From the NCBI GenBank assembly GCA_037951105.1, contig JBAMJV010008004.1:1-64000 (forward strand): DNA of 64,000 bases, written 5' to 3'. This document shows, one piece after another, positions 4,938 through 63,866 of the stretch. The stretch's first letter is position 1. Each line of letters starts with the position of its first letter. The position numbers and the translations under genes are program-made. The notes under the pieces are model-generated. The model ran no database searches, was not told the origin of the DNA, and saw only the letters and a list, made by a program, of their open reading frames with translations. The stretch is from Echinarachnius parma. Taxonomy: Eukaryota; Echinodermata; Echinoidea; Clypeasteroida; Echinarachniidae.

Positions 4938-7900
4938 GTAACTCTTAGCATGTGGGTACAGGCAATACTTTTGTCCAAATATCATCCTTCCGTACTTCAC
5001 CACCGTATTGATCATTTCGCCACAGAATGAGAATATTATCCCCAAAGTGAGAATATTTTGCTCGAAATAATATATTTTTGTTCCCTGTTCAGATGAATTG
5101 ACATGATTATTTGATGATTTAGCCCAAATATGGTATGCCTTTTGCCCAAATATTGGGGGTTTTCATGTCTCGCCCTGTACGCCTATGTCCATGATCATTA
5201 TACGTTATAGCCTTGTTGATATACTATGTTTGCAAAATCACCTTGCATCTAATTAGAAAATGTTGCGAATTATTAAACCAATGCTTAATAACTTAGAAAT
5301 GAACACAATCCTCTTATTCCTCTTCTGATTAGTCTGCCTCCTTCATTCCGGAAGATTCTTGCAGATGTTTTGCAAGAACATAATCAAGAATACCAAGCGT
5401 AATATAATGGTCATATCCACCTTGGCGCTTTTTACGATTGTATGCAAGTTTCTGTATTTTTTTTAAAAATACGGATCCAGACTATCTAATAAACTACATA
5501 AGACAAATCTAAAATGATATAATTTAGTTTTCCAGAATACAGAAACATTAACAGTAAACACTTAATGTATTATTTTTAAGATGGATTCCATTCATTTGGA
5601 CTTTGCTGTCTATTCGCGTGATGGGGTAAAATGCCTCCAGCAGGCTATCTCGACTGGAGAGCTTGGGCAAACACTAGCGGGAATCTTCCTGTCAGAGAAC
5701 ACCTTGACCACCTTGACGGCAGATGGAGATGTTACCTTGTCTGTAGCAGTGACCCACGAACGCGCATTCGATCAGGCGCTGGAATATTTCGACAAGATTG
5801 GTAATTTACTTTCAAAGTTATGGTCTATAAAGATTATTGAGTAGGGAGGTTAAAGAGGGAACAATTGCAGAATATCCCTATATTTATGCTGAGTTTATGG
5901 TAATTGCATGGTGAAACATTAATTGGATTAATAAGGGTCATTTTACACTGATCAAATAATGCAGTTGCGAATATCTGGAGAAGAAATGAAATGTACTTGG
6001 TTTCACTGTAACTTGATGAAAGGGAACAATAGCCTTCAAGAGCAGAAGTGGTGCAAATATTGATTTAAAAAATAGGAAATATAAAACAACGCAGCATCAG
6101 CAATACAGTAACTGAATAATATGTGTTATGTGCCCGGCCAATATTTCAGAAATGCTAATTTTATCAATTTGTACCATCCTTTGAACACTGTCAACAAATA
6201 AAATGACCTAGAGTTATGCACAGTACTATAGCGAAGTTATCGATTCTATTTTGTAAGATGAAACCAAGTGTCCAATGTACTTGTTGATACTTTTGTTTAC
6301 AAAATATTTCAGTACTGACGCATAACAAAGCATAAAATGAAAGAAAATGTACGCGTCCATTCTGGATGTAAATTTATTATGCTTTGCTCTAATGATACAT
6401 GAACCTATGGAAAAGGCATGAAGACTTGACCGCACGAGGTCGTTTTGAATTGGGCCGAGGATATGGTCAAGCTGCCCAAAGATATTTCAGTAAATGTTAA
6501 TTTATTATGTTTTGTTCAATTGATACCAGGAGCCTATGAAGAAGGCATGAAGACTTGGCCGCACGAGGTCGTTCTGAATTGGGCCGAGGATATCGTGAAG
6601 CTGTCCAAGGAGGCTCTCCAGAAGCTGCAAGGAGTCGACGGGTGTCTTCTGAGCATGTATCGCAAGGATCACATGAAAGAGGATACTGGACTGTCACCCA
6701 TTCTATGCACAAAGTTGCTACGCTTCCGGGATGCACATCTGATGAAGCAAGGTACACAATTCTTGTTCTTACCTTTTTAAATCTTTACACTGATTTACAT
6801 GCAGATCTACAATTATTGCTTCGAATTGTGAATAGTCTTTTTGATATTTCTAGAACACCGACATATTATTTCCGATTGCAATGTAAAACATGAATGTACT
6901 TTTTACCAATAAAAGATAAACTTTCCGAGAAACAATGAAACGGAATTAAAGACACGATCTTTCTTTCTTAAGGAGACATGACGAACAAGTCGTTTGTTTC
7001 TTATTTGTCCTATCTTGTCCTTTCATTTCTAGTTTTCGTCGATGAGTACAAACTTCATGAGAGGGACATGGAAAATTGGGACGCTGGTACCGTGAAGACA
7101 TGGCTGCAAGAGGTAAGCGTTACTGACGATGTTGCATCCTTGCTAGAAGATGTAGATGGCGAGGTACTCAAGAACACTACCCTACAAGAATTCCACGAAG
7201 ATACGGGCATCACCCTTCTCCAAAGCAGAAAACTTGTCTATCTTCGGGAGTCTTATTTGGAGAAGGTAGCAGCCCCACGCAATGATGAGGCTAAAATTTC
7301 GAGGACGGAATCTACTTCATCTGATTCTGAGTCTAGCGACTCTTCCAGCACTGTATCGGATATGTCCGTACCACACACTCTTGCTAGCGCTGATGTTGAA
7401 TCACTAGCAGGATCTTTTGTATCTGCAGGAAACGATGAGAGTTTGTCTGTGAGTTATGTCGATGACTCCCTCTTGAGAGGCCAGAGTGCTTTCAAAGACA
7501 TAGTTCTTACCTATGAGGAACAAGACCAAGTGCAGCGATTACTCAGTGGTACTGAAGCTGGCTTCTTCGATTCCTCATATTTCCCTGTTCTTGTTGCAAG
7601 TGGTACTGAAGAACGACAGTCATTTCAAGAAAGGTTCAATTTCTTGTCTGTTGTCGACTGGTGTGCTGTCTTCGACTTTGATGCACGGTCTAATATGTCA
7701 GGATTGTGTGCTTTCATCGAAACAAAGCGACCTGTCAAGAAGCAAAGCCTCAGTTTGTTCAAGGATGTGAAGAACACAGAACAACTTAGGAGCGACGTGG
7801 AGTTTCCAGACATACCACTCTGGTTGTTTGCTAACGGAAGAGAAGACTTGGCATTACCAGCGATGGAAGGGAACATGAAGGACGAGGACCTGATGCCACA

Positions 7901-11075: not shown

Positions 11076-11106
11076 ATATTGTCATGCGTGGGATTGCTAT
11101 ACTGCA

Positions 11107-11213
11107 GGTCGCCATTTTTTAACTAGTCTACTGTTGTGCGCACTGCATTTAATACGCACCATGCGCAGGGCATTCGCAAAACAGCACCGCGCATCTGATT
11201 TACGAGTCCAAAC
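11107..11213 (-). mobile_element. Diverged copy of family L in the 3' UTR
   Basis: Read on the minus strand it matches the element at 3972-4137 (ATCAGATGCGCGG, then GGTGCG, then GGTCGCCATTTT). It starts about 30 bp after the SAMD9-like stop codon, so it is probably inside the 3' UTR. Confidence 0.6.
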
Positions 11214-11442
11214 CCCCTAATGCCACTGCGACGTCAGCACAGAGCGGCGGCGTGAGATGTAACACGTATTTCCACGATTAATTAACTCTCAAATTCGTCG
11301 AACATTCATGAATATTTTAATTGTTACGGTGTATATATATACATTAGGTGTTGATTCTTCCTTTCACAGCATTTCTATTTTTGCGAGAAACACGTTCCTA
11401 AATCTAATATGAATGTCTTCGATTCTGTTAACATCTTATCAA

Positions 11443-11448
11443 AATAAA
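11443..11448 (+). promoter_or_regulatory. Candidate polyadenylation signal
   Basis: AATAAA 368 bases after the SAMD9-like stop codon. It is the first AATAAA seen downstream in this AT-rich flank, so chance is possible. Confidence 0.4.
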
Positions 11449-11639
11449 ACGTAATCCCCGTTTGGCTCTGACTCACACTCGCTTACATTACACTTTTGAT
11501 TCTAATGAAACAGGCAACATTAACTTAAGTTACAGCATGCAGTATCAAACGAAAACCCATGGTCATTAAATTAAAGCCATCACACTGCAGTTTTGCAGAA
11601 CAATGTCAACTTCCCAGAGATTATACAGACAGCAATGAA

Positions 11640-14365: not shown

Positions 14366-14437
14366 ACTTAACCAATTTCCTTTGAGATTCTGGAATCCCC
14401 ATAGACTTTGTGCATATCCGGCCAGTTTGAAAGGGGT
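14366..14437. repeat. Short repeat J
   Basis: A roughly 72-bp unit beginning TTAACC and ending GGGGTTAA, sharing CCATAGACTTTGT with copies at 18017-18905 (interrupted) and 23350-23402. Confidence 0.5.
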
Positions 14438-18905: not shown

Positions 18906-19772
18906 AAGTGGATTTTGCCCATGTCACATCTCTCTGATAGCCACTGCTACACCAGCATGATCATTCCACCCGTCGGCTTTAACATATCATGTGTCCTTTT
19001 TCACAGCACATTCAACATTTTATGATATCTCCTTTTGTGGATTCTTCTCAATTCATTTCTTTGACGCTTGTTTGCTAAAGACGCAGATTGTGCAAACAGC
19101 CCAACCGCATTGATAGCCACCACTACACCATCATATTCAATCAGCCTTCCTAGCTTACACATTTAATGTGTCCTTTTCCGGAGCACCTCATTTGACATTT
19201 TCTGAGTTGCAACATATACCTCCTTTTGTGGTTTTGTCTCAATACTTTTCTTTGATGCTCGTTTGCCAAAGAAGCAGATTGTGCCAACAGCCCACGCTCT
19301 CTATTAATAGCCATCGCTGCACCAATATAATCGATCCACCTGCCTGGCTCACACATTAAATGTGTCCTTTTTTGGTGAACCTTCTCCAATACTTTCTAAA
19401 TTTGGAATAGAGATCTCCTTATTGCAGAGTCCTTAATTACTGATTTAAACATCTCGTAAAGTTTATCTGCTAAAAGAGCTGATTGCCCCCCCTTTTGAAG
19501 CCACCGCTAGGCCAATGAGATTCTCCTGATTGTCAACTGCAATTCATTTGACAGTAAAACTTCATTTATCTTTTGGGGGTTTCGGCATCTCCTCTACTTT
19601 CTGAGTTTGTCAAAACAGACATCTTCACTTGCAGTTTCGTCTCAATGCGCTTTATTAACGCACGTCCGCTTTGAATGCTTGTCAGCTAAAGATGCTGATG
19701 GCGCCCTTTTTGGAGCCACTGCTAAATCAATATTATTCTCGGGAATCTCATCCGCAATCCATTAGTACAACT
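18890..19772 (-). pseudogene. Decayed tandem copies of the syntaxin-17 last exon
   Basis: Five degenerate units of about 190-215 bp follow the syntaxin-17 stop codon. The segment GCTCGTCCGCTGATGAAGCC of the live exon (about 19868) has counterparts near 19676, 19462, 19257 and 19065, with a shorter trace near 18930. Each is followed by an AGCCAC-type block. The stop-proximal part (TTCGGCATCTCC, ACTTTCTGAGTTTG) is also repeated near 19584. All copies have indels and no long frame, so they are dead. Confidence 0.8.
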
Positions 19773-20018
19773 TCATTTGTCTTTCTTGGGTTCGGCATCT
19801 CCACTACTTTCTGAGTTTGTTAAAACGGACATCTCTATTTGCAGTTTCTTCTCGTTGCGTTTTTTTAATGCTCGTCCGCTGATGAAGCCAATTGCACTGC
19901 CTCCGAGAGCCACAGCAGCGCCCATCTTCACCCCGGCAACGAAACCAACCGGACCGCCCACAATGCCTCCAATAAGGGCGCCCCCTAGAGGTAGCATGGC
20001 TGCTTTGTAGGTAGATGC
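19773..20018 (-). CDS. STX17: STX17 exon 6 (membrane hairpin and stop)
   Basis: Acceptor CCTTCCTAG; the exon starts ASTYKAAMLPLGG in phase 0 and ends PKKDK before the stop at 19773. It encodes both glycine-zipper membrane segments and the cytosolic tail. A TTTATT at 19651-19656 (AATAAA on the minus strand), 117 bases past the stop, is a possible polyadenylation signal but lies within the decayed exon copies. Confidence 0.9.
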   Translation of the reverse strand, partial: ASTYKAAMLPLGGALIGGIVGGPVGFVAGVKMGAAVALGGSAIGFISGRALKKRNEKKLQIEMSVLTNSESSGDAEPKKDK

Positions 20019-23000
20019 CTAGGAAGGATAGAATAGTTAATAATAATATGGGTGTTTCTAAGCACGACTTACGGTACCTAACAACTAATATGTGTGGTAC
20101 CTAAAATCAATTACTGTTACTACTTAGCCAAACAAATACGAAAAAGATAGTGAATGACATCAACATTTCATGTGAAGGTTTATAATAGTGCTAGAAATTT
20201 AAAAATTGTGGGAGATAATAATCCCCAAAGTCCTTAAGGAACACAGAAACTAGAGAGAGATAGTGAAACGAAACTCTGTATGACACAAATATCCTCCTTT
20301 CAGTAAAGTACATATAAAGACAGTTTGCAGAGAGCTGCACCTTTTTAAATGTTTATGTAAATGATTATAATGCTCAATATTTTACCACAAACACAATGCT
20401 GGGATGATTGCCCATTTGGGCAGATTTGGATAAAAACGTCTGCTCATTTTGGTTGCCTAATTTGGCAAGTTCGATTTGACAAATTTGTCACATTTTAATG
20501 GCCAAAATAAAACAAACGTTCAATTTTGTAGCCAGCGGGCCAGTGCTTATTATAAGTCCTGGGGATAAAAGGTTACATTGTATACATGTACCTTGAGTAA
20601 ATGCTTCACTCCTTTCGACACATTCCCCTGCGCTGCATCAATGTTATTCTCTATGCTGTCAACTTTCTCTTGTTGTGCCTGAGAGTAAAATCAAAATGAT
20701 ATTGAAATAATGCCTTTGTATTTTCTTTGGTGTAAAAATCCCAATTATATGACAAGAATGACTGCACAGATATTGGCAAAAGCAGCTTACATAAATTGTG
20801 ACTTTAATTTTAGGCTTATTTGGATACATTCCCTGCGCTGCATCAATATTATTCTCTGTCAACTTTCTCCTGTTGTGCCTGTGAGAAAAACAAAATGATA
20901 TTCAAATCATTCATGTTTACATTCTAAGGGGTAGAAATCACAGTTAGATAGCAAGAATGATTGCACAGCTATGATGGCCCGGATTCACAAAGCAGGTTTG
21001 TACAAACCATGGTTTATCCATGGTCTACCTCTATGGAGTGCCATTTGTAAACTGATGGAGTAAGAATGTAAACTCCTTACTTGTTAACAATGTTGATGGT
21101 ACACATTTACAAAATGCACCAAATAAATGTTTGTCTTCTCACATGGTGAAATTTGCTGGTAAGCAAGCACTAACAGTCATATCATTAGAAATTATAAACT
21201 GTTTTACTTGTATACGAGCAGCACTCCATAGATGTAGAGCATGGATAAACCGTGGTTTGTACAAACCTGCTTTGTGAATCCGGGCCGATATGTTTTACAA
21301 TATTTAAACTGTGCATGATTAAACATGGCACAGATAGTATTATTAATAAATAATGTAGATGATCGCCAATAGGTACTAGTGCAAAACAGTTTACAACGTA
21401 TTTGGACACATTCCTCTGTGCTGTGTCAATATATACCCTAAAATCATGCAGGAATTAATAGGCATACCTTTGCATTGCAAGAAGAAGGCGTGTTGCAATT
21501 GTACTACAACATACCAACCTTTATTTGGATCATCCATGGAATAATACACCTGTCTAATCCCCTTTTTACTGACTAATCCCCCTTCTCAAAGATGGTCTAA
21601 TGCGGAAAACAAACCCTGGACATTGTCCTAGATTTGTTACTGTGGTTGCTCCAAATGGAACCAATCATATCAACCTTGTATTCAAGATGGAATTGGAGGG
21701 ATATAAGGTGCTTTTCTATTGTGTGGATGCAGCGTCAACCCTCTCCATTCGCTACATGTATCTTTTAACCCCTTACAATTTTAGCCGATACACGGTTTCA
21801 ACATACTCTCCACAAAATCACCCACATTGATAACATCCTAGGTGAAAATGAGGTACAAGATTTTGGACGAACCCAAACCTTGCATGAACATGTTCTCAGT
21901 TCTGGCAGAAAACATGTAAGAGAACTGGATGCATGCGCAAACTGCTTAAATGACGTCACCGTGCGTCTACTTCAACATGACAATAAAAAAGCCCTTAATG
22001 TTTCAGCCAGGGAGGACAAAAACAAATGAATCCTAAAAACCCAGCAGTGTACTCTCACCTGTACTTGGGCAGAAAAGTTGTGCGTCAGACTGTTGAGTTC
22101 CACCAGCTCATCCCTGAGATCATCCCACGAGTCCTGGACTTCTTGCGACGGTCCCACTTCCTGCACTTGTTGCTGCTGCTTTGTCAGGAAAGCCTCGGTG
22201 GAGTTATCATTAGAGAGTTGTTCTGATAATGGATCAGTCAAATCGCTGGACGAACTGGGAGTACTTGCTGTATTTATAGGGATGAATAAGAGAAACAACA
22301 AAATAACACATGTATGCTGCTGCTGTTGCTTTGACAGGTAAGCTGCAGTGAAGTTGACAGGAAACAGCGGGTCAGATAACCAATCGGTCATATTGCTAGA
22401 CAAACTTGGAGTACTTGGTGTATTTATAGGGATAAATTTGAGAAACAAAATACACATTTGATATCTATGGTGCTGTTGCTTTGTCAGAAAAGGCTCAGTG
22501 GAGTTGTTGTGGAACACATTTTCTGAGTTTCATTTGACAGAGTCAAACTGAAAATGGATTGAATTTAACTGATTGAAATGATTTGGTTGAATCCATGGTA
22601 TAACTTGAGTTTTTTTTTTATGTGCTGTTTTATGGACGAATTAAAGAACCTAGGGTCTGAATTCAGGATTTTGCCTGAAAACTGGCATTTATGCAGTGAA
22701 CATTGCATACCTTCTAGTGAGTTTCCATGCTTAAATCGTGACCGTAGCCCCTGGCTTTCATCAGAGTCTGACACAAGGATGGATCCGAGGAGGGACTGGG
22801 TCATGACCGGGGGTCGAGGGGCGAGCTCTCTACCCCGCAGAGTTCGATGACCTTGACCACCGCCTGGATGACCTCCTCCTTGACCGGCGACACCTGGTCA
22901 TCGAAGGCTTCAAGGTCAGCTTCACACAGCTGCATTCGCACCTTCTCCATTTCTCTGACGTTGGCCTTCAGTTGCTGTGGATGTATGTGAATGAAAGGTA

Positions 23001-32784: not shown

Positions 32785-33063
<279 letters not shown>

Positions 33064-44668: not shown

Positions 44669-44929
44669 ATAGATGACCGTCAATAAAAAGCGCCATAACA
44701 TGCAGGACATGGCGGGTGCTGACGTAAGTTACGAACACCACAGTGACAGCGCGAATACTTCTTGCTCGTCTTCTAATATATTGTCTACTAGTACATCGTC
44801 TTGCTGTGACGTCACGGAAGACGTCATCACGGCCAAACAAGAGAGGCTCGCGGCTTCGCCGGCGTCATGTGGTATTTCGAGCCCGTGCCCCGACCATTCC
44901 GACCACGAATCAGGCGATACAGTATGCAG
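44669..44929 (+). CDS. Receptor exon 1 (start codon, A/B region)
   Basis: The acceptor TTTTTGCAG precedes 44669, ATG is at 44673 and the donor GTAGCT follows 44929. The 85 codons plus two bases encode a serine-rich, acidic A/B region ([18 protein letters not shown]), typical of low-complexity activation regions. Another in-frame ATG four to six codons later could also start translation. Confidence 0.75.
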
Positions 44930-47900: not shown

Positions 47901-50900
47901 AATACTTGTGGGGCCCCACATTTATTACAAATGGTTACGTTTATGGATATTTCAGCCGTTTCTGAACCGAATTTGATAAAATAAAGTTTATTCTGTCATT
48001 AAAATATTATGCTCTTTCAAATTTGACACTTAGTTTGTCATTATCTCACAAAAAAGTATTATGTGTAGCGCCCTCTCTACCAAAACTCAACTATCACTTT
48101 AAAGTTCAACACTCAGTTCAAAGTACATGGCATTCTTGATTTTATCCTAAGATATAGCCATTTTCCCGATAATATTTCGGAAGTTTGCATATCTCGATAG
48201 AAACTAGAGAAATTGCTTAACAATATGATACTAAAATTTCCATTTCGTCCCTGAGGTAATTTTTTGACCTTTTCAGGCCATTTACGCAAAATCGTGAATG
48301 TGACGAAGTTCCTGGTTTTGCCAGAGCCGGTCTCATTTATGTCAGTTATCATCACCTATTGCTCATTGATTATTAAATCATCGAACCGCGTTCAGGAACG
48401 GTTTTTAACTATGACTATAATAAGGGAGACGTTGGATTAAGCTACCATATAAAGCCAAACAACATGGTACAAAATAAATGTGAAAGCTTAAATTGCTTTT
48501 AGTTGAATTTGACCAAATGTATGGATCAATTTAATGAAATAAAGATATGATAATAGGGGAAGAAAGAAAGAGGTAAGATGAGAGTGGAGGGAAGGTGGTG
48601 GATGAAATACGAAATAAATGGGGAGAGAAGGGGACGAAGTGGCTCAAGATGAATCGGTCTACTACGGTAAGTACCGCCATTAATGATACATTCTAGAGAG
48701 AAGGAACATGGAAGGAATATATAGAAAGAGAGAGATAGATAATGAAGAGCTTTCTTCCAAAAAGCGCTATATCCACTTTTTCAACTTTCGAGGAAAACAG
48801 GTTTCTTTGTACACGTGCCTATGGGAATATGAAAATTGAACTTTCTATAATGTGATTTTGAGTGAGTAATTTGTCGTAAAATGTGGATTCCTAGATAGCT
48901 ACGTAGCTTATAAATGTAGAAATAAACTCAATTTTTATGGAAAGTGGATTTAGCGCATTTTGGAACTGAGCTCTATATGGAAGGGGGCGGTGGGTGAGAG
49001 ACGAACGTATTGGTGAAGAGAAGAGGACGACACATACTTATGGCATGGATGGCGCAGGATGGTTCCGGCCTAACTAGACAAGTTCCACCAGGAATGGTTA
49101 GGGATGTTCAACATAAAGGGGTTAAATAGGGGGAGGGAGAATTAGGAGGTGGTGGGGGTAGATATTCTATGGGAGCGTGGAAGAGGAGCGGGGGGGGGGG
49201 GGGGAGAGAGAGAGAGTAGAGAACGGACTATTATTATTTTATACATTCCAACATAGCCATGATAGAGGAAACTAACTAGCAATACATTGAATAAATAATG
49301 AGCACCAATCTAGCAATCAGGAGGTCTCGGGTTCGATTATCGGTGGCGGAACTCAATATTCTTTGCTAATATTCCCATAATCATTCTTTTAAAGAGGATC
49401 GTTATTAATATTAACGTAACGAGAAAGAGGGGGGGGGGGGGGGCAGATAGAGGTAGCACAAAATAGGATGAAGAGAGATAGGGAGAGGGGAGGGGTGGTG
49501 AATTATCATTCTTTGATTAAAGTAGGAAAGTTGTCGAGGTAATATACGGGGCGACGTGGTAGATGTGCAAGGTCATTAATGCGGAAAGATAATGTAACTG
49601 GAAAGCACAAAGCATCCAGACAAACATAATTACAATGGGTGAAATAATATATAAAACACCATTCATTGCAATGAAAATAGATGTTTAGTAATTGTATCTC
49701 GTAATTGTTTGGGTGGAGCTTAAAATGTGATTGATGTTTTGTTATCTTATCTTTATATCATATTTCATAGCAGATTTTATAGATTTTGTATAACGGTGAG
49801 AAAATAAAACACAATACATTTATCCGCGTGAGTAGAGTAGCCTACAATTGCATGATTGGAGCTCGACAAAGACGACGCAGATGTCATTATTATGTTGCCT
49901 CCGGGCCCGACAGTACTAACTGGGAAGCGCGCCATTATCATCAGTTCCATATTATGACTCTTCCTTTTAAATATTTAGGATATGAACTATCCCCTACATT
50001 TAAGGGACCGAACTGGACCACAAATCATGAATGAACTCGAGATCATACACGTGTGAATCTGAGTTCATGGAAACGAGTTCATTGTGCTTCTACACTACAT
50101 AGACACACGCCATTTCCAGCTGTATATTATATTTTCAGTAACCAAAATAAAACCCTTTAAATGGATCGAGTAACTGTTATGACATGACTGTGCACAAAGT
50201 GAAAAATAATTGGTACAATGTGAAGTTGTGATCTGAAATGTCCACTGAGTAATGTGTGAAAGTTTCACGTTAAATGGATATTACAATGGCTATAAAGTTA
50301 AAGCGAAAATGCAAAGTGATATTTGATAACTTTTCACAAAGTTATTACTTGCCAGTGGTTAATTAAACATCCATAAACTTCAATCATCAATATTTTATAA
50401 ATCAATAAAGAAAAATTTAAAAAACAGAAACATGTTCCATGCTTCTAATCGGTAATATTAATACAATTAGGTAAATTTTGGGGATTTGGACAATGTTACT
50501 ATATGTAGTAACAAAGTTAACATAATATGTAAATATATTATATGACTATACCTTTATGTACAAGAATATCCAAGGATTATCCAAGGATTCAAACGGCTAG
50601 TTATAGGCTCGTTCTATCGACCACCAAAGTCTGACCCTACAAATCTTCAGGAACTTGAAAGGTCACTAGCTAACATGTATGCTAGATTCAAAGAGACCGT
50701 TGTTATTCTGGGGGTCGACTTCAATCTGGCAGACATTGATTGGACTAACAGAGTGGTAAAACCATACGCTACAGAAGCAACAAAATGCGCCCTGCTACTA
50801 GATATCTGCAATGACTTTTTCCTTGATCAACTGGTTACTGAGCCGACTAGAATATCTGGAAATACAAAGAACATCTTAGACTTGGTTCTAACAAGTCACC

Positions 50901-53900
50901 CTGGTCACATCACCAACTATGAAGTCACAGCAGGCATTAGCGACCATGATGCAGTTACTTTCCTGCTCAACTCTACGCCAAAGCGGACAAAGAAGATGCC
51001 AAGGAACATCTACCTCTTCAGTAAAGCTAATATCCCCAATCTGCAGTCTGCAATCGATACATGGCAGCAGGACTTTCTCAGCAGTAATTTCTGAAGAGTT
51101 TCGCCAAGGATCTAGCACCAGTTTTGTGTTTCATCTTCCAGCAGTCACTGAACACTGGACAAGTACCATCAGACTGGCGCCTGGCGAACATCACACCAAT
51201 TTTTAAAAAGGGAGACAAAAGCACCCCTTCAAACTATCGTCCTGTTTCCGTAACATCGATATGCAGTAAGTTGATAGAACATATCATCTTCAGTCAGATA
51301 ATGCACCACTACGATACCAACAACGTACTACACGACTCTCAACATGGTTTCCGAGCAGGCCGCTCATGTGAGACCCAGTTAATTATGACAGCCGAAGATC
51401 TGGCACGTTCACTGGACCAAAAAGACCAGGTTGATGCGATTGCTCTGGATTTTTCGAAAGCTTTCGACCGTGTCCCCCATGAGCGCCTCTTACTCAAACT
51501 CAGACACTACGGCATCCGAGGCGAACTACAGCAATGGATCAGATCATTCCTCACAGACCGATCCCAGCGGGTGGTTGTAGATGGACAAGCATCTGACACG
51601 ATCCATGTGTCATCTGGTGTTCCCCAAGGAACGGTACTGGGCCACCTATTGTTCATCACATTTATAAATGACATCTCCCGTGGTATCACGTCCAAGCTAA
51701 GGCAGTTTGCAGATGACTGTCTCATATACAGTCATATTCATCTCGGACCACCATGCGCTTCAGCGGGACCTTGACCGCCTTCATCAATGGTCTCTTACCT
51801 GGCAGATGAAATTCAACAAAGAGAAATGTCATCTTCTACGGTTCTCACTCCGCCGAAACAACATTGAAGGCAATTACCTACTGGGCAATACTCAACTTAC
51901 AGCAGTTCAAAACTACAAATACCTGGGTCTTACCTTTTCTCACAACCTATCCTGGCAAAAACACATTGATGGAATTGCATCGAAATCCAACCAAATGCTC
52001 GGGCTTATCAATAGGAATCTACGACGTTCTTCCCAGAAGATCCGACAACAAGCCTTCTTCTCCCTGGTTAGACCTCGCTTGGAATATTGTGCAACAGTCT
52101 GGAATCCATCTACAAAGAAGAGCATCTCAAAGATTGAAGCTGTACAGAGGCGAGCAGCAAGATTCGTTCTTCAACAAAACCGCCATTCTGAGAGTGTGTC
52201 TGCTATGATTCAACAACTTCAATGGAGTACACTGGAAAGACGCAGACACATCTCCTGCCTTAGCCTCCTCTACAAAATTCAGAATGGCATGGTAGCAATT
52301 ACACCTGACCAACTCCTCACACCAATGGCCCCAAGCATCACCAGACAATACCACCCAAATAAGCTCAAGCATATACATACTCGAACTCAGCTTTATCAGA
52401 ACTCCTACTTCCCACAAACTGTAACAGCATGGAATGCGCTCCCCAATAATATCTTGGCTTCTACATCACTAGGAGCCTTTGCGGGAGCAGTTGCCTCAAT
52501 CGGCAATTAATGGGACACCTCACCGGCTCCCCTCGACTCTACGTCCTGACTGATGGACCCTGTCAAGTACCCAAGTAGTAGTAGAAGAGTAACAAATCTT
52601 TACACTTTTAACCTCTGAGCTCGATTAGATGTTGTCGCTTTTCGAAGTAATATGTATGACAAGTCATTGTGACGTCATTATATAAAACTTTGGTTGCGCG
52701 TATTATTTGTTAAAATCGCGCGCGTACGCGCAAACTTTGATAACAAAATTACTTCCAGCATGAGACATAACTCCTGCAATCGATAACATCGTTATACGTT
52801 TGTGCCGTATGTCTAAACTAACATTCTCCTGTATCGATATATCGCGGCTCTGAGGGGTGAGACTAAAGAGCTGTATATAGGAAAATGGGTGAGACATTCC
52901 GTGTAAAATTGAAACCACGTGACTTTGTTAAGCCAATCAGTGACTCGTATTTGACTTAGCCATATAACATATAAATGTATGAAACACAGTTATGTCTCAA
53001 ATCACCCCGGTACCCCACCATGCCCACTGTCCAAAAAAACATCGGTTTGTCATCATGTTATTATTAACTTTTATCTAATGGTCTACTTTGTTGAATTTCA
53101 AACAAAAATGATACACTCGCATTTTTGTTTTCGTCTTAGAATATGGAATAGAAAACCATTGATCTTTTTAATGGATTGTGGTTCGGTTAAACAACTTACA
53201 CAATTCCAGCATTTTGGGATAATTATTTGAAATGTGTCATTTTATTCTTTAAAAAAGTCAATAAAAAAACAAATTATGATGTTTATTTGTTATAATTATA
53301 ATGAATTTTAAACACGCAAGCTTTGTATTATATCTGATTACCATTTTTTCACAATTAGCTGGAAATCATGAATGAAAGCATGGTTTAGAAGCGTCATATA
53401 TGACGCCATTTAAAATCACAATTTATATAGACCCCTGTTTTTATAGAAGATAAAGTGAAACTATTTCATCTTGTGAACAACTGATGTCTTCCGCGACACA
53501 ATCAGTGCAAACAAAACATTTTCTGAACTCAAAATATATTTATATATACTAATTAACAACATACATTTGCATTTGCGTGGATGTGGTGTGGCAACATTGG
53601 TAGAGCGCGCGCTTTCCAATCGTGAGATCCCGGGTTCGAACCCTGCCCACCGCATTTGTCCTTCGGCAAGACAATTCATCCACTATTGCTGCTCTCTACC
53701 CAGGTGTATAAATGGGGACCGGTAGGAGGTGAAAGCCTTTATGTGAACGATCTTCTTGAGCCCACTGAGCGCTTGGAAGGAATAATCCCAGGGAGTGGAG
53801 ATGGTGCACACAATGTGTGCTGGTTCGCATTGTATCCTATGACCGGGGTAATAATAAAATTGTAAAGCGCTTAGGGATGATTATCAATCGTGATAAGCGC

Positions 53901-56900
53901 TATATAAAAATTGGATATTATTATTATTATTATTATTTAGTAGTAGTTTCAGTGGCTGCTTCCTTCATGTCGTTGTTCAGATTCCACAATTCAACACACA
54001 TCACTACGGGGACCGATCATTCAGCGTAACTGCACCCACTCTCTGGAATAATCTATCCCATCACATTCGATCTATGACCTCGTTGGACTCATCATATATA
54101 CAATAATATTCTCTTTAATGTGTAAATTGTCTAATCTCTGTCGAGTAGACAATATGAATTGATTTATATATGTTCTTGTTTTAAATTGATAAAGGCTTAT
54201 GACGTTTTACGGTCTAGCTTGTTTTTAAATTATTATACTTAATCTGAGAATAAGATAATATTATGTGAACTACTAAGTTAATTAATATGTCACTTTCTAG
54301 TGGTCAGTTCCCATCTGAATTAAAATAGCCTTGGTTCAACCACTTTTGAAGAAACCTGGTCTAGAGCCTAGTTTTAGTAACCTTAGACCAATTAGTAATT
54401 TGCCTCTAAGTTAGTTGAGGGTGCTGCCACTCAACAAATTTTGCAACACCTCGTGAGTCATTCACTTTTCCCACCTACCCAATCTGCATACAGACAATAC
54501 CACAGTACTGAGACTACTCTATACTTAGAATAAAAAAATTATCTTCTGATGGCCATGGACCAGCAAAAAGTAAATTTGTGCCGCATTTGACACTATTGAT
54601 CATAGCACATTGTTGAATACACTCCAAAGATCTTTTGGTATAGACGATATTGTTTTGTTATGGATTAAATCATATCTTAGTGATAGATAGCAAAGTATAC
54701 AAATTCATGAAGTTGTTTCTGATGAAATTGCCGTCCCTCATGGTGTGCCTCAAGGTTCACGCCTCGGCCCCTTACTTTTTACACTCTACATGAGTAATTT
54801 GATTGGCCTAAGAAGCATTTTCAAACTGTAAATTGTCACTGTTATGCGGATGATACACAATATTTGTCTCTTTTGCACCAAGCGATATTGAGACGCAAGG
54901 TAGTATTCTAGTTTTGGAAAATTGTATTAAATTTATAAGATCTTGGATGCTTCACAATAAATTAAAGTTGAACGACAGTAAAACAGAATTTTGTATTGTT
55001 GGAACACCCAGACAGGTTTCAAAATTAAACATTAGTGACATTAATGTTGGAAATTCTGTCGTTAGTCTATCTAACAAGGTGATAAATTTAGGTGTGTGGT
55101 TTGATACAGGTCTGAGCATGGAAAAACATATTTCAAATACATGCAAATCTGCCTTTTTTATGATATATAATATTCGTCGTATACGAAAATACTTCGATCA
55201 GAAAAGTGCCGAAACACTTATACATGCATTTATAAGTAGTAAAATTGATTATTGTAATAGTTTGCCTGATACACAATTAATGAAACTGCAGCGGGTACAA
55301 AATGCATGTGCCAGACTTGTTTGTAACTCGTCAAAGTTTTGTCATATCACTCCTTTGTTGAAAACATTACATTGGTTGCCTGTTAAACAACGTATTATTT
55401 TTAAAGTTTTGCTGATTGTGCATTATAAAGCAATGCATGGTCAAGCCCCAAGTTATATAATTGAATTACTTTCGTTGCAATCACATTCTCATTATAATTT
55501 GAGAAGCTCACGTGATACACCTCTTGGAGTTACCCAAATTTTCTGCCAAAACAAAGATAACTTTGGGAGATCATGCATTTGTTTGTGTCGCCCCAAAACT
55601 ATGGAACAGTTTACCATTTTATTTGAGAAAATTGAAACTATTGATACATTTAAGTCTACGTTAAAAACTCATTTGTTTAAGCAGGCCTTTCCATAAGATT
55701 GTTTGTTTGTACGTTCTGGTTCTTGTACGTTTGTTTTTGTTCACTTAAAAAGGAGCTTTTTTTAATCTATTTTTTTAAGCGCAGTAGAGTATATATTCAT
55801 AGTAGCTGCGCTATACAAATGTTCGTATTGTTATTATTATTATTATAACGTGTAATTGTAAATAATTTAAGATGTAATGTATTTTTAAATTTGTATTTAC
55901 AAACTGTATTTTTACAATGTGTGCACAATATATATGTGATTCATATGCAATTCGAATTTCAAACTACGAAACATGAAACCCATAAGTACCATTATATCTT
56001 TCGATCTTTCGAGCCAAAACCAATTCAGTGGTGATGGACTTTGTACAGACTTTTATAATATTATGACAAGTATATACTTAGACTGATATGTCTCCCCTTT
56101 CAACTACAAGAATTGGGCAAAATTGGACAGTATGTTGCCCAACACTGGGCAACATACTGTCCACACAACTATTAGTTAAAATCTGCCCAACTGATGTTCA
56201 CTTGAAGGCTCAATTGGGTAATAATTGCCCAGAATTATGAATATTTTTAACCAACCAACAATTACCCAACTAAATTTACCCAACATTTTAAGAGTGTAAC
56301 ATGACTAATGTTTTTAGCATTACAGTAAAGTTACCATTATTTTAACCCAAACACGTACAGTTTTGTTCAATAAAAAAAACCGCACCAGAAAGGACAATAA
56401 TACATGCATATCACAAGTAAGGGTTAACAAATACATTTTTTGTTCAATGGAGATATCATCATATATGTGGGGACAAGTCGTCGGGTATATAATTAGACTG
56501 ACTCGCCCTTACAACTAACATGACTTATGGTTTATTTTAACAGAGAAGTTACCAGTAAACCTAAACCCGTACGGTTGTGTTCAATACAAAAAAAACATCC
56601 CCAGAAAGGACAATAACACATAACACATGCATATCGTACTTTGTTTTGTTCAATGCAGATATCATCCGATGCCAGATCTGCGGGGACAAGGCGTCGGGTA
56701 TGCACTACGGGGTGTACTCTTGTGAGGGATGTAAGGTAAGTTTGCAGGGTCAACATAATGATTTCAGTCATTCATTAATGATTTAATAGTTTTGTTATGA
56801 ACGCGAAAGCCGCGCCAGTTAAAAGTCGGTACGCCTTTGGATGATACTAAACACAATGATGCATTTCAATATGAAGGTATATTTTAAAAATGATTTTACA

Positions 56901-59900: not shown

Positions 59901-62900
59901 ACCCTAGGGCAGCCCCACGGCGCCCGCAAGACCACCGTACGCCGGACGTACGGTCGACGTGGAACCGTTCTACGCCATGGCTACGGCGAGTATAATTGCT
60001 TCGGCGACCGTGGAAATGAAAAAGAGTTATAACTTTTAGTTATAACTCTACGGCGACCCCTACGGCCTGTAAAATATACGGTTACGCCGTACGGGGACCC
60101 TGCGGCCACCGCAGATTTTCTGCGGCCGCCGCACGTTTCTCTCGATTTCGGGGGCGTACGACCGCCGTACGCTCGCCGTAGAGCAAATGTGACTGTAGCA
60201 TAAAACACAAGAGGTTTTTTTTTGGGCCCAAATAATTAAATGATTTGTTCAAAAAATAAAAAAAATGCTTACACTTTTTCAAAAATTATCAAAAGCGTTT
60301 TTTAAATAGTTGTTGATGATCTATCTACTTAATCATTATTTCAATAGAACATCACATGCATTTTTTGGTATGAAAAATGGTTGAAACCAATGCCTTTTTA
60401 TAAAGCGCCCTCTTGTGTTTTAATGGCTCTTTTTTAAATTATGATAACAGGTTTTTTACTTAGTCGTTTGTAATTGTGTATACCTTTCGAGCTTGGTGGA
60501 GTAATAACTTTTAGTTTATAATGTTACTGTCCAGGTTTGGTTACTAAAGTTCAGCCTTACCAAAACTGTACTACCCCTTTAATTTGTAGCGAGATAGCAT
60601 TAACATGTTATCTTGTCATTCCTGTCATTCCTTTTCACTTCATTTACACGTACAGGGTTTCTTTCGACGTACCCAGCGCCTGAAGCTAACGTATAAGCCG
60701 TGCCCCTACTGGGGCCAACCCGACGGGTGCATCATCAACATCGGGTCCAGGAACAAATGCCAGTACTGCAGATACCAGAAATGTCTTTCTCTTGGCATGT
60801 CATCGGAAGGTATTAATGTATACGTTGTGTTAATAACAACATTTAGTTTATGATAGGTATCTATATCATAACGTATTTTAATCATAATTATGGTATTTTG
60901 ATCATGTGGTTGCCTTTACTCAATGTTGTTATTGGTGGCTTTCCATAGTTTATAAGAGATGGAATCAACGCTAAAACAAACCTTTGACATAACAACATTG
61001 CCGGTTATAAAACCCTCTTTGGTTGAATATTCAAGACTTATTAAGCCAACAACCTAAATATTTCACCAATGATATCATCCTTGCATGGGCGTCGATCACG
61101 GGGGGGATCGGGGGGGAGGGGGGGGGGGGGGGGTGGATATATCCCCCAATATTTGAGGTGGGGGGGATGGCCTGTATTATTACCCCCTCCACCCCCCCCC
61201 CCCCAATTTTTGGGCTTCAGATTCTCATTAATAATGTGAACTTAGTACAATAGTCTTCTTTAAACCACATCTTGAGAGGGCTAAACTGCCCAAATCCAAA
61301 ATTGTGTGCTACGTGCAAACAATGCCTGTTGACTTTCGGTGTCATTCGTTTAAAAACTATTTTGTGTCCCCTCCGCCTATGCATCCTTGTTATTATTTCA
61401 CATCGTAAATAATGTTCACAATTAACATGATTAAATACAAAACGTAATGTTTGTCAAATATTTGTCAAATTTGGAGATAGCAATCAAACAACGTAATAAA
61501 AGACAGCATTATAAATGTGTTGTATACACTCTATTAATTACCATTGTATTTTAATCCCCCAGCTGTTCGGATGGGCCGGGTGCCGATCAAGGAGGTTCGA
61601 CGAATCAAACAGGAGCTGGATGAGGAGGCCAGCGAGTCGAACCCCAGCGAATGCGATCAGACCTTCATGTCGTACGTAGGCAACATGGCGGACAAGTTCA
61701 ACACCATGGTGTGTACCATCACCAAGCAGGATGTCGACAAGTTCTGGAAGAAATGCTCCTCGGTAAGTTGACCAGGTACTGTCGTAGTAAGTCCTGGAAC
61801 TGCGACGGTAATTCAGGTGCATAACAAAAGGATTGTTACAAGGGATCCAAATATTGTATACAACATTGTATTATGGTGTGAACCATCACCAAACTGGACG
61901 GCGACAAGTTCTGGAAGAAATAATATTCGGTAGGTAGACCAGGAATAAGGAACTTTGGTAGTAAGTCTGTCAGGTGTCTAATATAAATATTGGTTAAGTG
62001 TTGGCAGCTTGCTCAAGTTCTGAGTACCGACAAGTTCTAGAATAGAATTCTTTAGTAGGTCATGTATAGGTTGGCAAAGATAATTGGTTGTAAGTCCTAG
62101 GATCGCGCCGATAGTGTAGATGCATACAATTATAAACAAATACAAGTTCTTAAGAACTGTACTCCAGTAGTAAATTAAGTTGACCAGAACGGTAGTAGTA
62201 AGACCTGGACCCGGGGACCTGGAACAGCGCAGATAGTTCAGGTGCACAAAAAGAACAAGAACAAGTACATGTTCTGGAAGAATATAGTTCCTTGAAGGGT
62301 TGACCAGGTTTTTTTGTAAGTAAGCCCGGGTACTGCGCAAATAATTAATGTGCATACGAAACACGATCAAATAATATGTTTAAGGTTTGCCAGCAAGTTC
62401 TTGAAGAATGTCCTACTATTGGTTGACCAAGTAAGGCAAAAATTGCTAGAACAGGCAACATGATCCATGCATTGTGGTAGTTATTTTGGCCGTAGCTTGC
62501 CTTCGATGTTCATCTCGGGGTTCATCCGTTCCTATAATATTCCTTTCCCTGATTAATTTGTATAAAATATTTGTTTCCCTTCGCTTTCATCTCCAGCCTT
62601 TCAGGAGTTACATGCCGAACGGTTCGTTTATCGTCGATGGGATGCAGCTGGACCTCGAGGGTCCACCCCGCGAGATCACCAGCCGGGCGGAGATGGCCAA
62701 ACAGTGCTTCGTCAGTATGGAGGTGACCATCGAGAAATTCGCGGCGTACGCCAAGGAGCAGGATGAGTTTCGGCGGCTATCGGCGGCGGACCAGCTGATC
62801 TTGTTCAAGGGCGCCGCCCTGGAGGTGTGCGCCGTGCTCAGCGCGGGAAGATACTACCACGGTGTCTACAGGTAGGAACTAATTATGTGTAGAAAAGCTT

Positions 62901-63866
62901 TGCAAATGTTTAACCTACTGTATAATGGTCAAAGGTCGATTATGCTATAAATATCCATTTTTTATGTTGGTATCGCTAATCAAAGTTTAACTTGGATTAT
63001 AAGGTTTCACTAATTTTGCCGCCCTTTTAAAGAGAAGTAGTTACCCCAGTATCGAAGACCACACCCTCACTGTTGGTAGGCAAATGTGTTAATGCCACGA
63101 GCGAGAGAAGACCCATCACCCTCTAATGACACTTACACCATCCCCTCCTTGCTCCTGTCTATAATGTGTTCAGATTAAACTGGCAAAGATTTTCAGATAA
63201 GTTCTTTTGTTCAGCGCAGGTGAGTAAAAAGTTCATCTCCAGACCTGAATAAAAAAAGAAACTTAACAAAACAAAAGAAGCACAGTTCAAGATCTACATC
63301 AGCTAGTTCCCAGATTTCCCGAGATCAACATAAATGTACCAGCACGTGACGTGGCTGAGAACTCTTCGTATGAAAGGATCTCCATGTACATCAAGGCGGT
63401 AAAGTTCTTCTAATCGTACCCGATTAATAATCATTTCCAACAATTCAACATGTACAGCTATCAAATATACAACATCCATGATTATTTGTATGATTGGGTG
63501 ATAAATTCTTTCTACCCGATTTCATTCCCGACTTCTGTTTGTCCAGATTTCCAGAGATCAACACGTACATCCTGAGGAGATTATGTTCTATCGACTCTCC
63601 AAGTTGCCAACAATTCAACATGTTCAACCTCAAATATACAATGTCCAAAATTTGTATGATTCGTGATAAATTATTTCCACCCGAATTTTGTATGTCTAGA
63701 TTTCCTGAGATAAACACGTATATCCGACGCGATGTGGCTGAAAACTCCCCATTTGGGAAAGTCACCACATACATCGACGAGATGATGTTCTACGAGATGT
63801 TCAACAGACTAGACATATCGGAACTGGAGAGGGCGGTCTACTGCACCTTTCTGCTTTTTACACCAG
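44669..63866 (+). CDS. NR1-type (PPAR-like) nuclear receptor gene, 3' end beyond window
   Basis: Coding exons: 44669-44929 (ATG 44673), 46690-46832, 56659-56735, 60656-60809, 61563-61762, 62597-62871 and 63700-63866. All are GT-AG and join in phase. The product is a ligand-regulated transcription factor type: A/B region, C4 zinc-finger DNA-binding domain ([41 protein letters not shown]), hinge ([14 protein letters not shown]) and the first part of a ligand-binding domain ([17 protein letters not shown]). The DBD resembles PPAR and NR1 relatives, but the second finger has eight residues between its first two cysteines, unlike five in most receptors and three in PPARs. Helices 10-12 lie outside the window. 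The ligand is unknown. A divergent invertebrate NR1 subgroup is likely. Confidence 0.9.
44930..46290 (+). repeat. Decayed tandem copies of receptor exon 1 edge
   Basis: The exon end and donor (ACAGTATGCAG then GTAGCTAT) recur as GTAGTATTCAG-GTAACTAT near 45166, TCAGTATACAG-GTAACCAT near 45363, CCAGTATGCAT-GTAACTAT near 45517 and CCAGTATCCAA-GTAACTAT near 45913. Each unit of about 155-230 bp also carries TTGATTTTGTTACGCGTGAAG and ATTGTATCTCAAGGGACA. At least two copies keep a usable-looking GT donor, but the exon part has lost its frame. Confidence 0.85.
45945..46110. mobile_element. Miniature element D with long inverted ends
   Basis: 166 bp, beginning GGGCCCTGTTGCAGAAAGAG with an inverted right end. 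The arms match over about 60 bp (includes ACAATCGATTGTAAGTT). It is inserted in one unit of the exon-1 edge array. Confidence 0.85.
46297..46480. mobile_element. G/C-tract element E, copy 4
   Basis: CAGGGGCCGCTGAACC at the left and CTTTCCGCGGCCCCTG at the right, G-tracts on one side and a C-tract on the other. Imperfect flanking repeat TGTT. Confidence 0.6.
46690..46832 (+). CDS. Receptor exon 2 (basic hinge-like A/B exon)
   Basis: Acceptor ATTGCAG, donor GTACTT. It completes AGG from exon 1 and ends in phase 1. Very basic: [19 protein letters not shown], a possible nuclear localisation signal ahead of the DNA-binding domain. A G-family element begins 21 bp after the donor. Confidence 0.8.
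46854..47210 (+). mobile_element. Family G, copy 4
   Basis: TTAAAGTAACATTGTCCAAAT to GTTACTAGATCCCTTCAAC. Interior matches family G (TGACATTTTCACACATTACT). It lies in receptor intron 2, adjacent to the donor. Confidence 0.75.
47347..48332. mobile_element. Element C with 21-bp perfect inverted ends
   Basis: 47347-47367 and 48312-48332 are exact inverted repeats beginning GACCGGCTCTGGCAAAACCA. A complete family A element (47533-48102) is inserted inside it. Confidence 0.85.
47533..48102 (-). mobile_element. Family A, copy 4 (nested in C)
   Basis: TTAAAGGGATAGTTGAGTTC to CCAAAACTCAACTATCACTTTAA, 570 bp, with all family blocks in order. It is the cleanest family A copy in the window. Confidence 0.85.
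48590..48666 (+). pseudogene. Decayed copy of receptor exon 2 3' edge
   Basis: GTGGCTCAAGATGAATCGGT then CTACTACG followed by GTAAGT closely matches the live exon end (GGCTCAAGATGAACCGG, CTACTCAG, GTACTT). The donor here is stronger than that of the real exon. No acceptor or frame upstream makes it a full exon. A weaker third copy may lie near 49045-49080. Confidence 0.75.
49283..49345 (+). mobile_element. tRNA-derived SINE head
   Basis: GAGCACCAATCTAGC, AGGAGGTCTCGGGTTCGATT: the same blocks as the SINE head at 16226-16320 (opposite strand). Followed by unrelated sequence. Confidence 0.6.
50157..50520 (-). mobile_element. Family G, copy 5
   Basis: TTAAATGGATCGAGTAACTG to TTTGGACAATGTTACTATA; interior TGATCTGAAATGTCCACTGAG is shared with copy 3. 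Confidence 0.7.
50560..52590 (+). mobile_element. Non-LTR retrotransposon, broken (Jockey/CR1-type)
   Basis: A 5'-truncated endonuclease part (50600-51093; DFNLADIDW and SDHDAV motifs) is joined directly to a reverse transcriptase part (from about 51100), so the endonuclease C-terminus and linker are deleted. RT motifs: [35 protein letters not shown] and FADDCL (about 51706-51725). The frame changes just after FADD near 51730. The C-terminal part then stays open to 52510 ([31 protein letters not shown]). It ends near a short GTA repeat (52575-52585). Inactive. It lies in receptor intron 2. Confidence 0.85.
53582..53938 (+). mobile_element. Complete tRNA-derived SINE with ATT tail
   Basis: The head has a tRNA-like A-box (TTGGTAGAGCGCGCG) and B-box (GGGTTCGAACCC). 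The body has GGCAAGACAATTCATCC and CTACCCAGGTGTATAAATGG, a type common in marine invertebrates. The 3' end is AAGCGCTATATAAAAATTGG followed by ATT repeats. That 3' end resembles the end of the nearby LINE at 54290-55850. Confidence 0.85.
54290..55850 (+). mobile_element. Non-LTR retrotransposon, broken (CR1/L2/Rex-like)
   Basis: RT fragments in several frames: [14 protein letters not shown] (near 54370), [18 protein letters not shown] (near 54740) and CYADDTQY (near 54850). Stops and frameshifts precede an open frame of 260 codons (54914-55696) with [31 protein letters not shown] and [14 protein letters not shown], the classic C-terminus of these elements. The tail is GCGCTATACAAATG then ATT repeats. 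It is 5'-truncated and inactive. Confidence 0.85.
56125..56162. repeat. 38-nt perfect hairpin
   Basis: GGACAGTATGTTGCCCA, four-base loop ACAC, then its exact complement. It is within intron 2, beside further TTGGGCAA/TTGCCCA motifs at 56110-56290. Confidence 0.85.
56300..56500 (+). pseudogene. Decayed copy of receptor DBD exon 3 edge
   Basis: This stretch matches 56500-56705 unit for unit: CAGAAAGGACAATAA, ACATGCATATC, TTTTGTTCAATG, AGATATCATC, GGGGACAAG and GTCGGGTAT. The exon part carries substitutions and indels that remove the cysteines, and the acceptor is GGAG rather than GCAG. Spacing is about 205 bp. Confidence 0.85.
56659..56735 (+). CDS. Receptor exon 3 (first zinc finger)
   Basis: Acceptor TTCAATGCAG, donor GTAAGT. 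It encodes [15 protein letters not shown] and CEGCK: the four cysteines of finger I and the start of the P-box. Phase joins to GFFRRT in the next exon. The intron position between the fingers is a common one in this family. Confidence 0.95.
57777..58303 (+). mobile_element. Family A, copy 5
   Basis: TTAAAGTTATACTACAG to AACTGTACTTTCCCTTTAA. Contains GAGGGCGCTTCAATAAG and GCGCCCTCTTGTGTTTTAAC, used here as the empty-site reference for the Harbinger-like insertion in copy 6. Confidence 0.8.
58832..60200. mobile_element. PIF/Harbinger-like GC-rich non-autonomous element
   Basis: 1,369 bp. The ends TACCTCAGTCACATTTG and CAAATGTGACTGTAGCA are inverted. It is flanked by TAA (58829-58831 and 60201-60203). 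Removing it plus one TAA restores GCCGTTAAAACACAAG, exactly as in family A copy 5, so this is a true 3-bp target duplication. Three-base TWA duplications are the PIF/Harbinger hallmark. The interior is far more GC-rich than its surroundings and full of GCCGTACGG motifs. Confidence 0.8.
59447..59893 (+). CDS. Frame inside the Harbinger-like element, unknown product
   Basis: A 148-codon frame. The ATG at 59531 starts a plausible protein beginning [17 protein letters not shown], followed by an acidic stretch ([16 protein letters not shown]). The C-terminal half is arginine- and proline-rich and mirrors the CCGTACGG repeats, so it may be non-coding. Not a recognised transposase or DNA-binding domain. 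It might be a remnant of the element's second protein or a captured host segment. Confidence 0.25.
   Translation: MPSTTNNTNIHTSGNFARNCTTVNTFCTMPPKNREKGKGGKAKKKTNPVPEEEQPSAEEVETQDHEPGTLEDEDESPALPRGPYGWREASLREPCVVLALPAGCDTHRKAPHRTGTVRPPYGARKAALRRPYNSCGRRNLLGICKSQK
60656..60809 (+). CDS. Receptor exon 4 (second zinc finger)
   Basis: Acceptor TTTACACGTACAG, donor GTATTA. It encodes [16 protein letters not shown] to [10 protein letters not shown]. Finger II is C-x8-C-x9-C-x2-C, with PYWGQPDG in the D-box instead of the usual five residues. Ends in phase 1. Confidence 0.95.
61084..61215. repeat. G- and C-tracts (E-like)
   Basis: G-tracts near 61097-61132 and C-tracts near 61191-61204 around a short spacer. 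Similar to the E family interior, but the ends are not clear. Confidence 0.5.
61563..61762 (+). CDS. Receptor exon 5 (hinge)
   Basis: Acceptor AATCCCCCAG, donor GTAAGT. It completes GCT and continues [20 protein letters not shown], the C-terminal extension of the DBD and hinge, then an acidic stretch and [16 protein letters not shown]. Ends on a full codon. Confidence 0.9.
61763..62440 (+). repeat. Decayed tandem copies of receptor exon 5 3' edge
   Basis: The live junction (GACAAGTTCTGGAAGAAATG, CTCCTCG, GTAAGTTGACCAGG) recurs in decayed form with junctions near 61929, 62054, 62172, 62295 and 62421, spacing about 117-167 bp. Each copy keeps part of ACAAGTTCTGGAAGAA, GTTGACCAGG and AGTAAGTCCTGG...CTGCG...TTCAGGTGCAT. 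Frames are lost. Confidence 0.85.
62597..62871 (+). CDS. Receptor exon 6 (ligand-binding domain, helices 1-5)
   Basis: Acceptor TTTCATCTCCAG, donor GTAGGA. Begins [11 protein letters not shown] and includes the NR signature [17 protein letters not shown], then [12 protein letters not shown]. Ends in phase 2. Markedly GC-richer than the surrounding introns. Confidence 0.92.
63314..63420 (+). pseudogene. Decayed copy of receptor exon 7 (first)
   Basis: After CCCAG the sequence reads FPEININ, then a DVAENSS-like stretch, a MYIKAVKFF stretch and a stop. It matches the start of the live exon ([19 protein letters not shown]) but is truncated by the stop. Confidence 0.8.
63547..63699 (+). pseudogene. 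Second copy of receptor exon 7 start, open and in frame
   Basis: It follows TTTGTCCAG and reads [13 protein letters not shown], then unrelated sequence (about 51 codons) straight into the live exon without a stop. It is a tandem copy 153 bp upstream of the real acceptor. Use of this acceptor would lengthen the exon by 51 codons in frame. Probably decayed, but alternative splicing is possible. Confidence 0.7.
63700..63866 (+). CDS. Receptor exon 7 (ligand-binding domain, middle helices)
   Basis: Acceptor GTATGTCTAG, donor GTAATA. It completes AGA and reads [19 protein letters not shown], then [20 protein letters not shown], consistent with LBD helices 6-9. Ends in phase 1. The remaining helices, including the activation helix, are beyond 64000. 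Confidence 0.9.

Follow-up and report, generated by a model that had tools for sequence, protein, structure and literature searches.

Introduction

Mirages, as a kind, are described as leaving normal splicing undisturbed, and the Adh3 mirage of the lancelet is reportedly subject to somatic instability. Lancelet mirages are described in Adh3, the globins BflGb6 and BflGb9, troponin C and PGBD5, with units of 150–160 bp in the globins and of 60 and 108 bp in PGBD5 (PMC3087553, PMC3902484). The BflGb6 mirage was found with six units in one haplotype and three in another, and the authors of the globin study considered that mirages are possibly more general in cephalochordates (PMC3087553). Small tandem duplications can also be generated by fill-in of break ends, a process attributed to CST-Pol alpha-primase and end joining (PMC8355091).

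The window analysed here covers positions 1–64,000 of contig C7992, from an echinoderm assembly of 1.2 Gb in 14,790 contigs. On contig C14600 of this assembly, COX1 is followed by tRNA-Arg and by reading frames recognisable as ND4L and COX2; its single AAA codon aligns with an Asn, and its ATA codons mostly with Ile or Leu, in the best-matching solved COX1 chain. Such a mitochondrial gene order and code are typical of echinoderms and make a lancelet origin improbable. The window contains three genes, a SAMD9-like gene (+ strand), STX17 (− strand) and a nuclear receptor (+ strand), and several of their exon edges are accompanied by decayed copies of themselves. The features in common with lancelet mirages are the tandem repeats across exon–intron boundaries, on either side, and the frequent conservation of splice signals (PMC3087553, PMC3902484).

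Results

Decayed copies at the exon edges of the window

The SAMD9-like gene model matched solved SAMD9 chains with an E value of about 1e-64, and the nuclear receptor model produced a zf-C4 match of 92 bits. The STX17 model was matched by a human STX17 probe, and its SNARE match of 25.8 bits lies just under the Pfam cut-off of 26.8. STX17 exon 6 starts at position 20018 and its stop codon is located at about 19773–19775 (− strand). The window also includes two reading frames (50546–52510 and 54854–55696) that we take to be reverse-transcriptase-like, of the non-LTR type, a TAC repeat of ~95 units at 32782–33063, and a small element at 20976–21286 whose inverted ends, of 66 bases, are 95% alike, which is found in an STX17 intron and adjoins the exon 5 copy.

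Twenty-five splice junctions of the window were probed with sequences comprising 60 exon and 60 intron bases. Copies were detected at six of them, the acceptors of SAMD9-like exon 3, STX17 exons 4 and 5 and receptor exons 3 and 7, and the donor of receptor exon 5 (Table 1); the probes located three copies at the last of these and two at the receptor exon 7 acceptor. The best scores at the six junctions were 75–130, and 100 single-base shuffles reached at most 23–30 there. At receptor exon 1 the donor fell under the probe cut-off, and in BLAST it begins an intronic array with only ~9 exon bases in the unit; the junction CAG/GTAAC is kept in two copies of this array (by eye). No copy was found with the 60 + 60 base probes at either edge of receptor exon 2, nor at the 17 further junctions probed beyond the positives and receptor exon 2. 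At the confirmed exon edges the offsets were about 128–235 bases and the identity was 67–86%, and the AG or GT was kept in five of the nine copies located by the probes and lost in the other four. A sequence-only reading of the window had named nine exons with the same arrangement, a duplicated splice junction. Probes and BLAST confirmed it at seven of the nine; the STX17 exon 6 copies are real but include no splice junction, and receptor exon 2 has no copies. Besides its AG, the outer copy of receptor exon 7 (63312–63400) has a GT-like end, as judged by eye. The intron preceding receptor exon 2 has a weak duplication of ~84 bases at 46516–46640 that does not reach the exon (by eye).

Table 1. 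Positions of authentic exons or exon edges and of their copies in the 64,000-base window
Feature	Positions	Strand	Observations
Decayed copy, SAMD9-like exon 3 acceptor and exon start	6366–6482	+	86% vs 6494–6611, offset 128; AG lost; one in-frame stop; also on C6655
Authentic SAMD9-like exon 3 acceptor region	6494–6611	+	Exon start 6530; open exon, AG and GT borders
About three decayed units 3′ of STX17 stop codon	18935–19382	−	74%, offset 176; kinship with exon 6 tail by eye
Decayed copy, STX17 exon 6 coding tail and 3′ UTR, without splice junction	19463–19670	−	77% vs 19679–19880, offset 216
Authentic STX17 exon 5	20592–20678	−	Human STX17 probe; AG and GT borders
Decayed copy, STX17 exon 5 acceptor and exon	20819–20972	−	80%, offset 206; AG kept, frame broken; also on C6655
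Authentic STX17 exon 4	22059–22267	−	Human STX17 probe; gene model; junction probe
Decayed copies, STX17 exon 4 acceptor	22318–22506	−	74%, offset 150; AG changed to AC in best copy
Multi-unit array, about six units by eye, from receptor exon 1 donor	44921–46282	+	Last exon base 44929; almost wholly intronic; 66–86%, offsets from 157 up
Palindromic element inside receptor exon 1 array	45945–46110	.	Self-inverted, 77%
Decayed copy, receptor exon 3 acceptor and exon start	56297–56488	+	73%, offset 219; AG kept
Authentic receptor exon 3, first zinc finger	56659–56735	+	zf-C4 match
Authentic receptor exon 5 end and donor	61706–61776	+	Last exon base 61762; gene model
Three located decayed copies, receptor exon 5 donor	61873–62356	+	GT kept in first only
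Outer decayed copy, receptor exon 7 acceptor and exon	63312–63364	+	39/48 exon sites identical; AG kept, frame broken
Inner decayed copy, receptor exon 7 acceptor	63434–63581	+	75%, offset 170; AG kept
Authentic receptor exon 7	63700–63866	+	Gene model

Tandem Repeats Finder, which is too insensitive for these arrays, reported a single exon-edge array in the window. Comparison of the window with itself identified 13 local direct-repeat clusters after low-complexity pairs were removed. Nine are located at gene edges, two of them being the STX17 3′ arrays, and four (30209, 34866, 37731 and 58140) are away from gene edges; those at 30209 and 58140 overlap palindromic, mobile-element-like sequence. 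Duplications cover 21.6% of the window sequence within 500 bases of the 13 listed exons, 16% at 500–1000 bases and 1.65% beyond 1 kb, a contrast that is sharper than in the other loci.

A second version of the region

Contig C6655 contains a largely colinear second version of positions 6.2–36 kb of the window and is apparently the other haplotype. The copies at SAMD9-like exon 3 and STX17 exons 4, 5 and 6 are also present on C6655, in colinear arrangement, and the presence and number of arrays at STX17 and the SAMD9-like gene are the same on both contigs. While the genic pieces compared differ by 0–6% between the contigs, the STX17 and SAMD9-like copies are 14–26% different from each other. 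These results indicated that the arrays in both genes are real and older than the two contig versions. The sequence-only reading had raised the possibility of an assembly error; the recurrence of the copies on a second, apparently allelic contig makes this unlikely at STX17 and the SAMD9-like gene, and it was rejected for the copies found there.

Other stretches of the two versions are less alike, with some intergenic pieces sharing only 67–79% identity. The SAMD9-like region 6237–11144 is 99.1% identical between contigs over 4.9 kb, and most neighbouring stretches are 67–95% identical. Alignment of the two versions is broken by gaps that measure from hundreds of bases up to about 2,500, some of them reaching near exons. 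In STX17, the intron that joins exons 5 and 6 (20050–20588) is almost entirely replaced on the other contig, to within a few bases of exon 5.

Local duplications in random loci

A random sample of 20 stretches (196.8 kb) was analysed in the same assembly. One of them was dropped as satellite (L024:1–6267, unit of ~196 bases over >6 kb), leaving 19 loci and 188 kb. Repeat pairs were discarded when they were shorter than 45 bases, had an offset outside 60–600 or were of low complexity. The 19 loci contained 66 local duplication arrays, while dinucleotide shuffles, one per locus, contained none. Coding sequence in these loci was predicted by a codon-usage score rather than annotation and includes some mobile-element frames; with this definition, 52 of the 66 arrays were clear of predicted coding and 14 overlapped it, compared to 11.3 expected. 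Outside sampled repeats the overlap was 14 of 51, compared to 10.4 expected (p 0.10). In L008, four of the five arrays overlap predicted exons of one apparent coiled-coil gene (by eye).

Repeats were judged solely by matches within the fetched sample, and on this basis 16 of the 66 arrays, a lower bound for repeats, had matches elsewhere, as compared to 118 of 300 random segments. One of the random-locus arrays tested is low-copy (itself, a 98% match and an 89% match). The background of duplications is mixed, other arrays being part of multicopy sequence. A 167-base tandem duplication at L022:483–817 is inside a multicopy element, the whole query being matched at 25 places with 93–100% identity. 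The 216-base duplication at L007:8900–9650 belongs to a multicopy family and is apparently single in many of the related places, which carry a repeated unit of ~230 bases.

Excess of duplications at exons

The exon sample consisted of 30 of the 134 kinesin-domain matches, taken from the top of the table with one per apparent allele pair. These exons are not independent, several sharing a gene and L029 and L046 overlapping, and the binomial p values are therefore generous. Counts of exon copies taken from the protein-family table detect only strong cases and were left out of the rates. A local duplication overlaps 13 of the 30 kinesin exons, compared to 21% of random segments and to 24% (95% range 17–34%) of segments clear of both predicted coding and sampled repeats (p 0.017). 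When the duplications were separated by age, the young ones (≥85% identical) overlapped 5/30 exons and 13.7% of background segments (p 0.39), and the older ones (<85%) 8/30 exons and 10.6% of background segments (p 0.011). Coverage by duplications at the kinesin loci was 24% in the exon and 17–26% within 300 bases, with 12–13% in the random loci; farther out it was the same. In about 10 of the 13 kinesin cases the copy extends across the splice junction, usually with the signal kept (by eye; the junctions of L041 and L055 were taken from flanking sequence). In a separate instance, G000:C1237:166421–166907, two same-strand myosin matches to the same profile start are 185 bases apart and are likely an exon-edge copy.

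Duplication is thus widespread, and against this dense background exon edges carry an excess that is modest and found mainly among older duplications. The sequence-only reading had offered two origins for the copies. The high genome-wide rate of short tandem duplication agrees with the 66 arrays in 188 kb, with the 52 of them off predicted coding and with the young duplications free of exon excess. The other origin, a process that prefers splice junctions, is weakly favoured by the kinesin exons, in older copies only, and the two overlap counts in random loci are 14 of 66 and 14 of 51. As the main cause, targeting of splice junctions was set aside for now because no exon excess exists among young duplications.

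Unit size and spacing

Offsets were 158–266 in the 13 kinesin arrays, 128–214 in the nine window gene-edge arrays and 61–373 in noncoding arrays. A range of 125–270, set after the data were seen, includes all of the kinesin and window gene-edge arrays and 13 of the 14 coding-touching random arrays, as compared to 22 of the 52 noncoding ones. The receptor exon 1 array was entered with an offset of 194 and its shortest offset is 157, both within this range. A KS test on exon-edge offsets gave 0.002 against all noncoding arrays and 0.11 when multicopy arrays were left out; for the kinesin offsets without multicopy arrays it gave 0.09. The young copies in L027, L038 and L049 are separated by a spacer without detectable similarity, so that not all arrays are strict head-to-tail duplications.

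Allele differences and fate of the copies

Of the 13 kinesin exons carrying a duplication, four had a likely allele in the table and were used for an allele comparison. The pairs are apparently allelic, judging from their 83–97% identity and matching structure, although recent paralogy is possible, especially for L042/L059. The presence or number of arrays differs in three of the four pairs. In L027/L057 and L042/L059 the array is found on one contig only, and L030/L058 have two and three copies, respectively, while the array is common to both members of L054/L060.

The fate of the copies was assessed in 24 exon copies, 13 from kinesin exons, seven from the window and four from L008. A stop or frameshift is present in 13 of them and absent in 11. 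Protein-changing differences between copy and exon amount to 124/259 (0.48), compared to 0.72 expected if both copies were free and to ~0.59, by our rough estimate, if one is free and the other constrained. Since the observed value is below ~0.59, the copies may have had slight protection, either through being used or through gene conversion, although the indication is weak. L040 has seven silent and no protein-changing differences. For the best copy at the six window junctions, 252/286 exon and 246/287 intron positions are identical (local alignments, gaps omitted). These nearly equal values give no clear backing to the proposal that the copies are visible at exons owing to constraint on one of them. 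As the only cause, such constraint is unsupported, since exon parts would then be more alike than intron parts.

Discussion

We consider it probable that the arrays are mirages, i.e., local direct duplications, mostly tandem and some spaced, whose unit spans an exon edge by chance. Direct duplications with offsets of about 60–370 bases occur widely, both inside and outside predicted coding. The process may start with faulty repair in which a short segment is duplicated where it lies, possibly the fill-in of staggered breaks and end joining, and the number of units in an array would later change by unequal exchange. Copies spanning a junction would be tolerated, since they leave the outer authentic exon intact, and most of the extra splice sites are presumably passive. 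The confinement of the excess to older duplications suggests that old copies persist or stay recognisable longer at exon edges, either because one copy is held or because nearby DNA is replaced more slowly. Several observations stand against this explanation. The equal divergence of exon and intron parts is not predicted if one copy is held, and the replaced STX17 intron between exons 5 and 6 is one case against slower turnover beside exons. The sharper contrast in the window, the narrower offsets of exon-edge arrays compared with noncoding ones, the protein-changing share below the estimate for one free copy, the spaced young copies and the mixed background also count against it.

An alternative is that exon edges are true hotspots, at which some process tied to nucleosomes, transcription or splicing produces duplications of ~130–270 bases. 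This reading is favoured by the overlap at 13/30 kinesin exons compared to a background of 24%, by the concentration of exon-edge and coding-touching offsets in the post hoc range of 125–270, by the clustering of L008 arrays on the predicted exons of apparently one gene and by the coverage of 21.6% near window exons versus 1.65% beyond 1 kb. However, young duplications show no excess (5/30 versus 13.7%), the KS value for kinesin offsets is only 0.09 without multicopy arrays, and predicted coding in random loci is overlapped barely more often than by chance (14 versus 10.4, p 0.10; 14 versus 11.3). We regard true hotspots as rather unlikely, and it is doubtful that a distinct exon-edge process with a unit of ~130–270 bases, a nucleosome scale, acts atop the genome-wide background and steadily supplies spare splice sites.

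It could also be proposed that selection retains some of the copies because they serve as alternative exons or as decoys in splicing. The 11 of 24 copies free of stops and frameshifts, the protein-changing share of 0.48 compared to 0.72 for two free copies, the seven silent and no protein-changing differences in L040 and the splice junction carried by about 10 of 13 kinesin copies (by eye) are in line with this idea, which we nonetheless find improbable: 13 of 24 copies are broken, AG or GT was lost in four of nine window copies, and the value of 0.72 assumes two free copies when one of them is the real exon, which should bring the value down. An artefact of assembly, for instance the collapse or stacking of haplotypes, could be suspected from the existence of two versions of the region in the assembly, some intergenic pieces of which are as far apart as the copies. 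Around STX17 and the SAMD9-like gene, however, the versions are 93–99% alike and the copies, 14–26% apart, are colinear on both contigs, making this origin extremely improbable.

If the arrays are mirages, as we favour, they can be compared with the systems described before. Like the duplications produced by break-end fill-in, they are short, in place and abundant in natural genomes (PMC8355091); unlike the fill-in insertions of <100 bp described there, most offsets are longer here, and fill-in is a putative mechanism for these arrays. As in intron gain by tandem duplication (Rogers) and in internal gene duplications, duplicated splice signals are raw material (PMC3087553), and the exon-edge copies could be a possible route to new splice sites, as the sequence-only reading had stated. 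Unlike Rogers-type intron gain inside an exon (PMC3087553), the window copies are located in existing introns or in the 3′ flank; no new intron separates two exon copies, and each authentic exon is single, with its copies to the intron or 3′ side. Recognition by Tandem Repeats Finder, a trait of minisatellites, is limited to 22233–22506 among the exon-edge arrays, and the open frame that characterizes mutually exclusive exons is seen in 11 of 24 copies.

The closest resemblance is to lancelet mirages. Tandem or near-tandem copies that span the boundary are found at seven of the nine named window exons and at about 10 of the 13 kinesin exons with copies (by eye). Both kinds of boundary are represented, with acceptors at SAMD9-like exon 3, STX17 exons 4 and 5 and receptor exons 3 and 7, and donors at receptor exons 1 and 5. 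Variation in length between haplotypes was observed in three of four apparent kinesin allele pairs, while STX17 and the SAMD9-like gene show none. Among the matches listed in a literature search, covering titles and abstract openings and with most subscription journals outside its scope, there was no report of mirages or exon-boundary repeats in an echinoderm. Local duplications overlap roughly four in ten of the kinesin exons sampled and differ between apparent alleles, which suggests that mirages may be common across invertebrate deuterostomes; how new splice sites, alternative exons and introns arise thereby becomes testable within one population. Unlike lancelet mirages, which are described gene by gene (PMC3087553, PMC3902484), those described here have an echinoderm host, include old copies in the window and have a measured frequency (13/30 kinesin exons, ~10/13 at the junction by eye). 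They apparently represent a known kind of structure in a new group, common in this genome.
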